64,000 nucleotides of DNA from Pomacea canaliculata. Its lineage: Eukaryota; Mollusca; Gastropoda; Architaenioglossa; Ampullariidae. The stretch is taken from contig NC_037599.1 of assembly GCF_003073045.1 (NCBI RefSeq), positions 17,462,055 through 17,526,054 of the forward strand. Direction: 5' to 3'. Each line of letters opens with the position of its first letter. The stretch's first letter is position 1. Shown here in pieces: positions 50,386 to 60,209 of this stretch. Position numbers and translations under genes: made by a program. The notes under the pieces were generated by a model. The model ran no database searches and was not told where the DNA came from. It saw only the letters and a program-made list of their open reading frames with translations.

Positions 50386-50557
50386 CAGGGGTGGGCAATT
50401 ATTTTTCCCAAGGGGCTGCATGAGAAATTGGGATGGTTTTAGAGGGCCGGACTAATATAATCTTAACTCAGTTTTACCCAATACTGTATATATAGTATAT
50501 ATACGGGCGGGCGGGCCGGTCAGAGACAGGAGGCGGGCCGGCCTTTGTCCAGGTCTG
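50386..50557. mobile_element. hAT-type MITE, copy 2
   Basis: Begins CAGGGGTGGGCAATTA and ends TTTGTCCAGGTCTG. A perfect 8-bp duplication AATTGGGG flanks it (50378-50385 and 50558-50565). Interior shares the GGGCCGGACTAATATAA and CAATACTGTATATATA blocks with the copies at 6835 (inverted) and 59980. Confidence 0.88.
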
Positions 50558-53759: not shown

Positions 53760-54175
53760 TGTAACCGAGTGGTAAGGTGGGGTTGTATGGTGACAACAAC
53801 AGTTCAACACTCGAACCAAAAAGCCAGGAACAGTCAGCAGGTGTGCGACCCTTTATTCTCGTACAATGGTCACGGCTGCGTCGATCGCCCGAGGCGCTAG
53901 AGGTCGGAGCTGTCTCTTCTTCGTCGTGTAGCTGTGCGCGCTGTCTCCGCCGACTCTGTTCTGATCTCTTCGTCTCAGCTCTGCCCTTATATACCTCTGG
54001 GAAGGGGTAAACTTTGCGATGCTCTGATACGGTCGGAACCATACGCCGTTTTACCCTAGCCAATCACCGCTATTTGCCATCTCCCATAGCCAATCACCGC
54101 TATTTGCCATCTCTCACCATGCCCTAGCAGATCCCGCCAAAACTAACAACAACACTGGACTACCGGCCCACTACA
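53760..54175 (-). repeat. 3' LTR
   Basis: 416 bp. Carries a TATA element GGTATATAAGG (53995-53985, minus) and AATAAA (53857-53852, minus), so U3, R and U5 are in normal order. Differs from the other LTR by a 30-bp tandem duplication (54057-54086 and 54087-54116, each starting TAGCCAATCACCGC) and several single-base length differences in short homopolymers. Confidence 0.92.
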
Positions 54176-54648
54176 TCCCCGCCGACTCTTTCTCCAACAG
54201 CGTCCTCGCTGATGAGCTTTAGCTAGCAAGACTAGGGCTATATACAAGCTCACCTAAATTATGCTGGCCCGGGGGGGCTTCAAATATTTAAAACTCTAAA
54301 GAAGATCTGTTGCTGCCGCAAGCAACGCCTAGTCATATCAGCCGCTGGTATTATTTACCTAGTGGAGTAAGATTTTGCCTTGTAAACAAAATATCTGTAC
54401 TACGCCTAACAGCTGATCTGACCGACTGATTATTCTTTTCCAAAATAACTGCTACATTGGGCACGAGGTGTATATAAGGGCAGGCATTCCGTCCACCTGT
54501 CTCGTATGTCATGACATTTCGTAGACGCAGCCGTGGCAAAAATGAAATGAACAATAGCAACATAGACAACTAATGTTACAACATATGTACGTCTTATCCA
54601 CAATGTCAGTGAATGTGTCACACACCACTTTTCATATTGCATCTGAGT

Positions 54649-55293
54649 TTATGCCTGTCTCACAGCAAGCCGCTGCAATTTGCTGTGCTCTGCAGGCACT
54701 GTCACTTCTGGAATCACAGTTACTGTCATATCGGGCACCACAGGTACTGTCATATCTGGCACCACAGGCACTGTCAATTCTGGAACCACAGGTACCGTCA
54801 ATTCTGGAACCACAGGTACTGTCACTTCTGCAACCACAGGTACTGTCAATTCTGGAACCACAGGCACTGTCAATTCTGGAACCACAGGCACTGTCACTTC
54901 TGGAACCACAGGTACTGTCACTTTTGGTATCACTGTAGTTCTGGCTTGACGGGGTGGGACAGTAGTATACCAAAACAGAGTTTCTTCGTCCCTGTCGTAG
55001 TCTTGACAATTCTGTGTCTCCGGCAGTTGACTGTCCTCTAACTGCGGAGACGGCTTCGCTGCTTTGATGTCGTTACTGCGGGCACGTGCAGGGCCGTCAA
55101 CAAGGGGCCTGACTGTGTACACAGCACTGTCATCCACTGGCCGGCTGGTGATATACAGGTACTCCGGCGGCTCCGCCCATGGAATCTGTCCTGTTTGCAG
55201 TTCTGCTTGGCTCTGCCGTCGTTGTGGTTGTCGCTGTTGTAGTTGCACCGGCTTGTCTTGAAACTTTTTCTCTTGAAATCGGCCGGCGATCAC
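54649..55293 (-). CDS. Retroelement C-terminal ORF with 8-residue repeats
   Basis: Minus-strand ORF in the same frame as the cold-shock ORF and separated from it by a single TGA (55308-55306) and a few codons, so both were probably one reading frame. The N-terminal part is Gln/Arg-rich (QLQQRQPQRRQ), a middle part carries EYLYITSRPVDDSAVY, and the C-terminal part is about ten repeats of TVPVVPEL. No enzymatic motif is seen. The repeat looks like a flexible or self-associating tail; function unknown. Confidence 0.55.
   Translation of the reverse strand: MIAGRFQEKKFQDKPVQLQQRQPQRRQSQAELQTGQIPWAEPPEYLYITSRPVDDSAVYTVRPLVDGPARARSNDIKAAKPSPQLEDSQLPETQNCQDYDRDEETLFWYTTVPPRQARTTVIPKVTVPVVPEVTVPVVPELTVPVVPELTVPVVAEVTVPVVPELTVPVVPELTVPVVPDMTVPVVPDMTVTVIPEVTVPAEHSKLQRLAVRQA
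54695..54934. repeat. Ten 24-bp tandem repeats
   Basis: Ten consecutive 24-bp units of the form GG(T/C)ACTGTCA(C/A)TTCTGG(A)ACCACA. 24 is a multiple of 3 and the unit has few stops, so long ORFs appear in several frames on both strands. Only the minus-strand frame continuous with the element's other coding parts is taken as real. Confidence 0.95.
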
Positions 55294-55305
55294 TGCCTCG
55301 GCATT

Positions 55306-55620
55306 TCACTCCTCCGATACCACAGACGAACGTGGCTTCAAACCCCTTGTATGACAGTCTGGTTCAAATTCCACCAATTCACCTTGCCTAGGCGCGGAAG
55401 CCTGCCTTGTGAATAACTGAATGGTGGACAAAGACGTCTGGCCGCCATTATCAGGTGTTATGAACCCCATCCTTTTTGCCACGTTGAACCACCTGCAGAA
55501 CCTCGCCTTCTGCCCCTCCACCATCGCTGTCATGGAAGTGCTGGTCGCTGCGCTCCGTTTCTTGTCTGCTGTCGCGCAAAATATTATGTTTGCGATGACG
55601 ATCAGCTCGGAGGGAATCAC
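55306..55620 (-). pseudogene. Cold-shock domain (LIN-28 type) inside the retroelement
   Basis: The minus-strand ORF carries the first half of a cold-shock domain, with the WFNV and GFITP segments (RNP-1 region), near 55520-55440. The second signature, VFVHH (RNP-2), is at 55435-55421 in another frame, and the ending GELVEFE is back in the first frame. One base is therefore missing near 55438 and one is extra near 55392, a compensating pair that spares the flanks. Spacing and the FNVAK/GGQ context resemble invertebrate LIN-28 more than Y-box proteins. CSDs bind single-stranded RNA. Broken as sequenced, by decay or by assembly error. Confidence 0.75.
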
Positions 55621-55689
55621 GTTGCTGTGTCGTGTGAAGTCGGGAGTGCCGCCTCCATCTCCAGCTGTCTGACTCGTGCAGTCAGACGA

Positions 55690-56128
55690 ATCTATCTCAT
55701 CCTCCTGTCATTACACATCTCCTCGTCTCTACACGTCGGCCGTCTTAAGGAGATCGGCAAAAGAAAGACCCATGGTCGCCAGCTGTCTGGAGTCTCACGT
55801 CGGACCTGGCTGTGTTTAAGTCCTTTCACAAAGCGTGTCGCCAAAACGTGTGTACTGATATGGCGTCGCTCATCAGGCGATTGCTTTCGCCTGTAAATTC
55901 TCAGTGTCGCAGCATATTCGATGACCGCCTCCTCACTCTGCTGTCGGCGGTTATAAAAACTGGCGATAATGTCCATATAACATCTCTCCGCTCGCCGTAT
56001 GCCTCTCTCAACACATCCAAAATTCTTTCCGGCGTGTTTTTCATGTCATAAGGGAACATCAGAACTCGCCGTCTAGCAGGTCCCTCCAGCGCGTTGAGAA
56101 CATAGACACACGCGGCGACCTCAGGCAT
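55690..56128 (-). pseudogene. Gypsy-type Gag fragment, frameshifted
   Basis: Minus strand, two overlapping frames. The first (from about 56128) has LNALEGPARRRVLMF, ERILDVLREAYGER. The second (from about 55976) has SFYNRRQQSEEAVIEYAATL and ATRFVKGLKHSQVRRE. Together these match, in order, the Gag-like domain of Ty3/Gypsy elements (capsid-type helices with the FYxRRQ..ES..EYA core). The frames join if one base is missing near 55977. No CCHC zinc knuckle follows; the cold-shock domain takes that position. Confidence 0.75.
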
Positions 56129-56295
56129 CGGCTTAGGGCAAGACCTATCTCCACCTCTCTTTCAAACTCGTCGACACTGGCCCTCGGCAAACTTCTGAAG
56201 ACGGACTAAATGACACGTTCGTACAGCCTCTGCTGACCTGTCGCCCTCTGCAGCCAATTTTCACTGCTGACACTGATCCTGCTCGCAGCGCCAAA

Positions 56296-56673
56296 TGTAA
56301 CCGAGTGGTAAGGTGGGTTGTATGGTGACAACAACAGTTCAACACTCGAACCAAAAAGCCAGAACAGTCAGCAGGTGTGCGACCTTTATTCTCGTACAAT
56401 GGTCACGGCTGCGTCACTCGCCCGAGGCGCTAGAGGTCGAGCTGTCTCTTCTTGTCGTGTAGCTGTGCGCGCTGTCTCCCCGACTCTGTTCTGATCTCCT
56501 CGTCTCAGCTCTGCCTTATATACCTCTGGGAAGGGTAAACTTTGCGATGCTCTGATACGGTCAGAACAACACGCCGTTTTACCCTAGCCAATCACCGCTA
56601 TTTGCCATCTCTCGCCATGCCCTAGCAGATCCCGCCAAAACTAACAACAACACTGGACTACCGGCCCACTACA
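56296..56673 (-). repeat. 5' LTR
   Basis: 378 bp. TATA element at 56524-56514 and AATAAA at 56390-56385 on the minus strand, in the same order as in the other LTR. Lacks the 30-bp duplication and is shorter by one base at several homopolymers. Confidence 0.92.
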
Positions 56674-59979: not shown

Positions 59980-60209
59980 CAGACCTGGGCAAACGCCGGC
60001 CCGCGGGCCGGATCCGGCCCGCCTCCCGTCTCTGACCGGCCAGCCCGCTGGCCGCCCACCAGTAAATATACTATACATACAGTATTGGGTAAAACTGAGT
60101 TAACTATATTAGTCCGGCCCTCTAGAACCATCCCAGTTTCTCATCCGGCCCTCTAGAACCATTCCAGTTTCTCATCCGGCCTCTTGGGAAAATTAATTGC
60201 CCACCCCTG
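59980..60209. mobile_element. hAT-type MITE, copy 3
   Basis: Starts CAGACCTGGGCAAACGCC and ends TTGCCCACCCCTG. Flanks CTGTACAG (59972-59979) and GTGTACAG (60210-60217) match in 7 of 8 bases. The longest of the three copies; it contains an internal ~35-bp duplication around the CGGCCCTCTAGAACCAT block. Confidence 0.85.

Follow-up and report, generated by a model that had tools for sequence, protein, structure and literature searches.

A gag-only LTR element family in the snail Pomacea canaliculata with a cold-shock domain captured from host LIN-28

Introduction

Zinc knuckles are the usual nucleocapsid of retroelements. Work on Troyka, a group of long terminal repeat (LTR) elements found in molluscs, agrees with this and ascribes to Troyka a Gag with CCHC, some short non-autonomous forms, CG...CG ends and 3-bp target duplications (PMC12440569). 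Two further systems lie close to the one described here. The TR-GAG elements of plants have two LTRs around a Gag-only internal part, are non-autonomous and in some cases mobile (PMC9784723), and LTR elements of bdelloid rotifers have captured additional third open reading frames (ORF3s) of env-like, esterase/lipase and exonuclease types (PMC5408684). Our subject is a 2.9-kb LTR element on the minus strand of a 64,000-nucleotide stretch of the Pomacea canaliculata genome (the window, which refers throughout to this whole stretch; C10:17462055-17526054, C10 being contig NC_037599.1), together with the dispersed family to which the element belongs, in which a Gag region is followed by a cold-shock domain (CSD) of the LIN-28 type.

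Several of its features are familiar. Like TR-GAG, the snail element has LTRs, a primer site and a single Gag open reading frame (ORF) without pol, but it differs in its animal host, in its Ty3/gypsy relatives and in the captured host RNA-binding domain at the place of the zinc knuckle (PMC9784723). It shares with the rotifer elements the gain of coding modules, although here the change lies within the Gag frame (PMC5408684), and it differs from Troyka in having TG...CA ends and, in five copies read by eye, 4-bp duplications (PMC12440569). Its relatives L055 and L056 conform to the Ty3/gypsy elements (Metaviridae) in their Gag, CCHC knuckle, protease (L056) and Ty3-type reverse transcriptase (L055), whereas the CSD family itself has neither pol nor a CCHC in Gag. 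With LIN-28 it shares the CSD, the basic tail and DNA from three exons that breaks off just ahead of the stop codon, but it is intronless, fused behind Gag, and has lost the CCHC knuckles save for out-of-frame DNA in a single copy (L054). This is a real, unusual domain swap inside an otherwise known kind of element. We found no description of a cold-shock domain in the Gag of an LTR element in the literature, which was covered mostly as titles and abstract openings, with subscription papers largely outside and Repbase not searched.

The explanation that we favour, with a probability of about 0.62, is that these are gag-only Ty3/gypsy elements in which a captured LIN-28 CSD would act as a substitute nucleocapsid and for which pol would be provided in trans.

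The element in the window

A first-pass annotation, made from the letters of the window, had proposed two LTRs enclosing, on one strand, a Gypsy-like Gag followed by both cold-shock signatures. All of these are present on the minus strand, and the parts of the element are as follows, in window coordinates.

53760-56673, minus strand: whole element, 2.9 kb, LTR-bounded, broken and without pol
53760-54175, minus strand: 3' LTR, holding a 30-nt tandem duplication at 54057-54113
54176-54195, minus strand: candidate polypurine tract, purine-rich and directly before the 3' LTR
54649-55305, minus strand: open frame of 218 aa, comprising the end of the lin-28-derived tail, an element-specific tail and the repeat
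54693-54927, minus strand: 24-nt tandem repeat of 9.8 units, read as an 8-residue Val/Pro repeat
55158-55233, minus strand: match to the 3' end of host lin-28 coding exon 3, in another frame and ending just before the lin-28 stop codon
55285-55522, minus strand: LIN-28-derived CSD and its basic tail, complete as DNA but split over frames in this copy
55523-55700, minus strand: coiled-coil-like stretch and basic linker, the site of the CCHC knuckle in autonomous relatives
55701-56260, minus strand: Gag capsid-like region, with frames broken in this copy
56276-56293, minus strand: primer-binding site, with complementarity to the 3' ends of tRNA-Ser(TGA) genes of the snail
56296-56673, minus strand: 5' LTR

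The end given in the annotation, 55306, falls short, since lin-28-derived DNA continues to 55158. The two LTRs have TG...CA ends and differ by a Kimura two-parameter (K2P) distance of 0.019 over 379 aligned columns, and a 4-bp target duplication, TATT, was read by eye. Between them stand Gag fragments, the cold-shock signatures in two frames and the 24-nt tandem repeat, in that order, and no pol. This copy is broken, because its Gag-like and cold-shock signatures fall in different frames, and the Pfam CSD model matches its ORF only in part, with 19.1 bits (cut-off 27). The window copy is 79% identical to host lin-28 DNA over 298 columns, and on this alignment chance is no sensible account of the match.

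A multicopy family without pol

Copies were sought throughout the 440-Mb, 24-contig P. canaliculata assembly. A DNA query spanning gag to CSD gave at least 42 matches (40 scored among 246 candidates), and 28 of these, the window included, cover the whole query. Of the 51 rows that a Littorina LIN-28 query gave, three are exons of host lin-28, two more are weak, and the remaining 46 fall at 39 loci. The search for further copies that the first-pass annotation had called for thus yields a multicopy Gag-CSD family, with 39 LIN-28-type CSD loci outside the host gene. DNA was read for 34 of the 39, the remainder being C3:38226227, C6:6330528, C11:7399443, C11:7407985 and C10:19664036, the last of which had no match in the gag-to-CSD DNA search.

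Thirty of the loci read are numbered L001 (the window) to L030, and in 14 of these an open frame of 480-759 aa runs from within or before Gag past the CSD region. Eleven of the 14 contain the whole 78-residue CSD; L005 is one residue short and has a differing tail, L019 is a few residues short, and L014 has part of its CSD in a different frame. Most open copies have a Val/Pro-type repeat like that of the window, and no pol motifs appeared in the open frames of the 14 loci. Several copies thus have Gag and the CSD in a single open frame, and the CSD is not the stop-filled unrelated sequence that had been considered as an alternative.

An LTR pair is present in 19 of the 21 copies examined with long flanks (all but L034 and L039), and these 19 measure 2.5-3.6 kb, leaving no room for pol. 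Each has a primer-like site behind the 5' LTR, with small variants, and the purine-rich stretch before the 3' LTR is similar in 18 of the 19, that of L045 being different. The K2P distance between LTRs is 0 in three pairs (L037, L040 and L041) and at most 0.073 (L050), and 4-bp target duplications were read by eye in L036, L038, L040, L048 and the window, the five copies read. The family is most likely a recently active, gag-only, non-autonomous LTR element of the Ty3/gypsy type, the identical LTRs counting as evidence of activity.

The Pfam model Retrotrans_gag matches the Gag region in all 13 pieces from open copies (best E-value 7.6e-5), with rows that are below the curated cut-off. A Gag-only query gave at least 150 scored matches of 363 candidates, including 28 loci at 78% identity or more. 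No Gag relatives were found in viral contigs, and a protein database search with 1273 candidates returned four proteins at E <= 0.001, each of them from P. canaliculata; the absence of relatives in other species is weak evidence, because this search requires shared exact words. The public P. canaliculata protein P0003 agrees at 100% identity with the Gag part of L016.

Several other loci bear on the composition of the family. L058 (C12:18711700-18713600) is a CSD copy with no Gag row nearby. In L024/L049 (C10:26292000-26300000) the CSD is whole, and the 759-aa frame continues not into the repeat tail but into a long coiled-coil-like sequence, possibly a second capture, for which neither Pfam (above cut-off) nor the solved structures gave a match. 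There are also numerous gag remnants (C9:933815-934129, for example), about 56-65% identical, often over residues 9-110, and with recurring stops (often two TGA and two TAG), which look like a non-coding derivative that spread. Finally, the public P. canaliculata gene models P0002, P0012, P0025, P0027, P0039 and P0040 are built on Gag-CSD elements; one such model is named 'nuclease-sensitive element-binding protein 1-like' and some are apparently fused to other sequence, so that they are a pitfall when Y-box or LIN-28 genes are counted.

Origin of the cold-shock domain

The Pfam CSD model scores 73.4 and 75.7 bits in two open copies. Among solved structures the element CSD scores 67.8 bits with LIN28A, 66.3 with a cold-shock protein and 56.9 with a Y-box protein, and this search alone leaves the family of the domain unsettled because the cold-shock protein score is close to that of LIN28A. 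A protein search with the CSD gave 63 proteins at E <= 1e-6 among 76 candidates, which were limited to lengths of 165-525 aa, and nine non-Pomacea sequences were read. In genera other than Pomacea, the proteins that match well across most of the CSD region are LIN-28s, foremost molluscan ones, with identities of 74% for Babylonia and 76% for Littorina, which have the best bit scores, and up to 78% for the clam Ruditapes. The other matches are cold-shock proteins that either cover about half of the region or contain the domain several times, three of them with E-values better than that of any LIN-28. No Gag-CSD protein from another genus was seen among the nine.

Host lin-28 is a separate locus on C6 with three matched exons, numbered here from the first matched one, and the window, on C10, has a CSD without introns, so that the element is not spanned by an independent host gene, as the first-pass annotation had allowed. 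Matches to both exon 1 and exon 2 are present in the window, in L054 and in all but one of the 29 loci L002-L030, and the two exons are joined there without the 17.5-kb intron, at identities to host lin-28 of 81-88% (exon 1) and 73-84% (exon 2); L030 has exon 2 only in part. A 3' part of exon 3 comes next in the window, in L054 and in every one of L002-L030 except L020 (28 of 29), and the match stops each time at one and the same position just ahead of the stop codon. The joined lin-28 exons are 79-81% identical to the three copies displayed. Such common ends indicate a single capture, with spliced RNA as its source.

In a phylogenetic tree the element CSDs form one clade (support 100/99) inside the gastropod LIN-28s. 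When the host protein is included the clade has support of 100/100 and is sister to Pomacea host LIN-28 at 91/63, which is not a strong value. Set against five cold-shock proteins, the element CSDs are nested in LIN-28 at 96/99, a placement that carries a long-branch warning. A Y-box origin is disfavoured by the database neighbours and by the DNA match to lin-28; the trees hold no Y-box row. The protein neighbours, the intronless exon match and the tree all bear out the earlier proposal of a captured LIN-28-like domain, and demonstrate, at the level of sequence comparison, that the element acquired its CSD from host LIN-28.

Loss of the zinc knuckles of Gag and LIN-28

Linkers were readable at 21 of the 37 loci asked, and a CCHC occurs in none of 17 from the CSD family, in both autonomous elements (L055 and L056) and in both of two mosaic copies (L057 and L059, described below). 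The lack of a CCHC knuckle in Gag, originally noticed in the window, therefore holds across the readable family. When the linker DNA of L002, L009, L016, L024, L025 and L054 is aligned with that of L057 and L059, one shared gap falls at the position of the knuckle; this alignment was made without the autonomous rows, whose linkers were compared as protein.

The knuckles of LIN-28 itself have fared little better. The exon 3 match starts past them in the window and in 28 of the loci L002-L030, the remaining locus, L020, having no match to this exon. Only in L054, an old copy with several stops, does the match begin at the start of exon 3, the joined lin-28 exons being 80% identical over 514 nt, and this copy has both LIN-28 CCHC knuckles in its DNA, where they lie out of the CSD frame. 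In the aligned rows of L054, L002, L009, L016, L024 and the window a one-base difference from host lin-28 shifts what lies downstream off the CSD frame, so that the open ORFs do not keep the LIN-28 frame over its C-terminal tail, and the knuckle DNA is deleted in five of these six rows (all but L054). The sequences show that almost all of the RNA-binding part of LIN-28 (the CSD and two CCHC knuckles) was acquired by an ancestral element, behind its capsid region, with spliced host lin-28 RNA as the source. The family is without the CCHC knuckle of Gag, and the LIN-28 knuckles are either out of frame (L054) or deleted (other alignable copies).

LIN28 knuckles bind GGAG, according to PMC5368188, and suffice to induce oligouridylation of let-7, according to a title in the reference list of PMC8201479. 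It may be, speculatively, that loss of the LIN-28 knuckles spared the element RNA from uridylation. That the domains with these two activities are gone from the element (PMC5368188; title listed in PMC8201479) would also suit a protein that acts outside the particle as a mimic of LIN-28, binding host let-7 precursors or mRNAs, in the germline for example, and shifting cell state or translation in favour of the element; lacking zinc knuckles, such a protein would bind yet not recruit the uridylation machinery. Its domain is indeed the CSD of LIN-28, with 64-66 of the 78 residues identical to host LIN-28 in 19 copies. However, the CSD is in one open frame with Gag and adjoins the former site of the Gag knuckle, and we consider it unlikely that mimicry is its main role.

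Constraint on the cold-shock domain

Seven aromatic or His positions of the CSD were chosen as RNA-facing, a role that we assume for those other than F73 and H75. All seven are invariant in 22 of 22 open CSDs, although only five of them count, because two are fixed by the motif with which the copies were selected. F73 and H75 are described in PMC8201479 as lining a binding groove of LIN28.

The ratio of nonsynonymous to synonymous differences (pN/pS) was estimated in 29 copies aligned as DNA to L011; pairs were pooled and are not independent, and dropping frame-changing gaps favours conserved copies in all regions. The CSD has the lowest value of the four regions, 0.23 (24 copies usable, four dropped, one without a hit and none with stops). 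The linker has 0.56 and the tail 0.48 (each with 20 usable, nine dropped and one with a stop), and the capsid region has 0.30 (15 usable, 14 dropped and one with a stop), or 0.27 without the copy containing a stop. Against the host protein, the CSDs of 19 open copies give pN of 0.066-0.084 and pS of 0.52-0.62. These ratios show that the CSD has been kept open under purifying selection, within the set of copies compared.

Host sequence is commonly captured by retroelements, and lin-28 could have been picked up by chance and carried as a passenger, the CSD being functionless and the frames remaining open because the Gag upstream is needed. Part of the lin-28 insert is in a frame other than that of LIN-28, and so not all of it has been kept for its old use. 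The pN/pS of the CSD is, however, well below those of the tail and linker, no stop occurs in its 24 usable copies, and the knuckle of Gag was lost in the same family; we regard a passenger CSD as highly improbable.

Autonomous relatives and mosaic copies

The more distant Gag relatives that have no CSD are autonomous elements with an ordinary knuckle. L055 and L056 are about 70% identical to the CSD family in Gag, have no lin-28 match, and contain Gag with one CCHC knuckle. L056 has an aspartic protease (PF13650, 36.2 bits) and L055 a reverse transcriptase (PF00078, 68.1 bits) whose best solved match is the Ty3 enzyme (144.6 bits); this Ty3-like reverse transcriptase was found in L055 only, and the CSD family has none. 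L061 is a third relative of the autonomous type without a CSD, and is more decayed.

L055 and L056 have their primer site in common with the CSD family, and the LTR of one CSD copy, L049, is 90-93% identical to their LTRs over 217-222 nt. A further connection is provided by L057, L059 and L060, the last being a third copy with knuckle and CSD, in which frames are broken and the knuckle is incomplete. Over the gag half these three share 93% identity with the autonomous elements and 78-79% with L016, and over the CSD half 93-95% with L016; they are thus mosaics, with a joint near the start of lin-28, and these identities exclude copies of the L057 type as plain ancestors. The shared primer site, the L049 LTR and the mosaic copies fit co-packaging with autonomous partners. 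Since the CSD family has no pol, this must come from elsewhere, and the autonomous relatives are its natural source; we infer that the CSD element would be moved in trans by these relatives, known here from parts (Gag, CCHC, protease and reverse transcriptase), and protease, reverse transcriptase and integrase would all have been supplied by them within the same genome.

The same observations, namely the lack of room for pol in the 19 LTR-bounded copies, the common primer site, the one shared LTR type and the mosaics, can be read as those of a satellite, whose Gag-CSD mainly co-assembles with autonomous Gag and parasitises its particles, the CSD giving only an edge in packaging. With Gag regions only about 70% identical co-assembly is not assured, and this account refines the substitute-nucleocapsid explanation more than it contradicts it. 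As the principal role of the protein we think it very unlikely.

One additional locus, L062 (C14:14282500-14284250), has a gag that lies between the two families, its DNA being 82% identical to the autonomous elements, 85% to the mosaics and 73-77% to the CSD copies, and no CSD row is nearby.

A putative substitute nucleocapsid

The CSD of LIN28 binds single strands with high affinity and limited specificity (PMC5311490). We propose that the CSD of the Gag-CSD protein acts as the nucleocapsid, and would hold and chaperone the element RNA in a particle that has no knuckle. Use as a nucleocapsid or RNA selector, suggested also by the first-pass annotation, fits because the knuckle of Gag has been lost and the CSD is constrained.

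Some findings weigh against this proposal. Gag itself rests on weak matches, Retrotrans_gag scoring 17.9 and 19.5 bits in two open copies (cut-off 24.1); nothing relevant was found among solved structures for the gag piece or its profile, and an AlphaFold model of Gag built from 13 near-identical rows is unusable (predicted local distance difference test score, pLDDT, of 47). The lead of the CSD over the capsid region, 0.23 against 0.30 or 0.27, is a difference between point estimates, and purifying selection tells us that the protein matters to the element and says nothing of its job. L057 and L059 have, in one frame, an autonomous-type gag with a CCHC knuckle and then the CSD, so that knuckle and CSD are not strict alternatives, and the basic linker alone might bind RNA. 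On the question raised at the outset of whether other copies lack the cold-shock part, the outcome is mixed: of the 28 Gag loci with at least 78% identity, 24 have a CSD row no more than 2.5 kb away, but four (C12:206199, C5:30030320, C10:16147876 and C5:1913760; 78-90% identity) have none. These four may be truncated, because their DNA match also ends inside Gag or the linker.

A more elaborate form of the proposal concerns the RNA. The LIN28 CSD prefers GNGAY in let-7 loops (PMC5311490; PMC5368188), and GNGAY is in excess over shuffled sequences on the sense strand of all six full elements tested, with z from about 2.4 to 4.4. The excess is weak from the 5' LTR to the CSD alone (z 0.7 to 1.9). 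It is absent from the elements when read antisense (z -0.9 to 0.2), from parts of two autonomous relatives (-1.3 and -1.5), from three stretches of the window (-1.9 to 0.0) and from host lin-28 (-0.5). GGAG, the site of the knuckles, is not clearly enriched in the six full elements tested. The enrichment of GNGAY is a lead only, because the motif was chosen after the data had been seen and the six elements are related. It could be imagined that the nucleocapsid was swapped for a host RNA-binding module and that the repeat behind the CSD supplies GNGAY sites as a self-made packaging code with which the RNA co-evolved, although we think this quite unlikely. As to the source of the 24-nt repeat, derivation from an autonomous element was rejected, the best match being no better than shuffles.

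The presence in one genome of a young family with the knuckle gone and a LIN-28 CSD, together with autonomous relatives, mosaics and an intermediate, lets the requirements for a nucleocapsid be compared. The family also illustrates a route by which host RNA-binding proteins may enter retroelements, through capture of a spliced host mRNA into gag.

The element in the window is itself flanked by inverted arms, at 50386-50514 and 60052-60209, which are 47-66 nt long, 89-92% complementary and about 9.6 kb apart.
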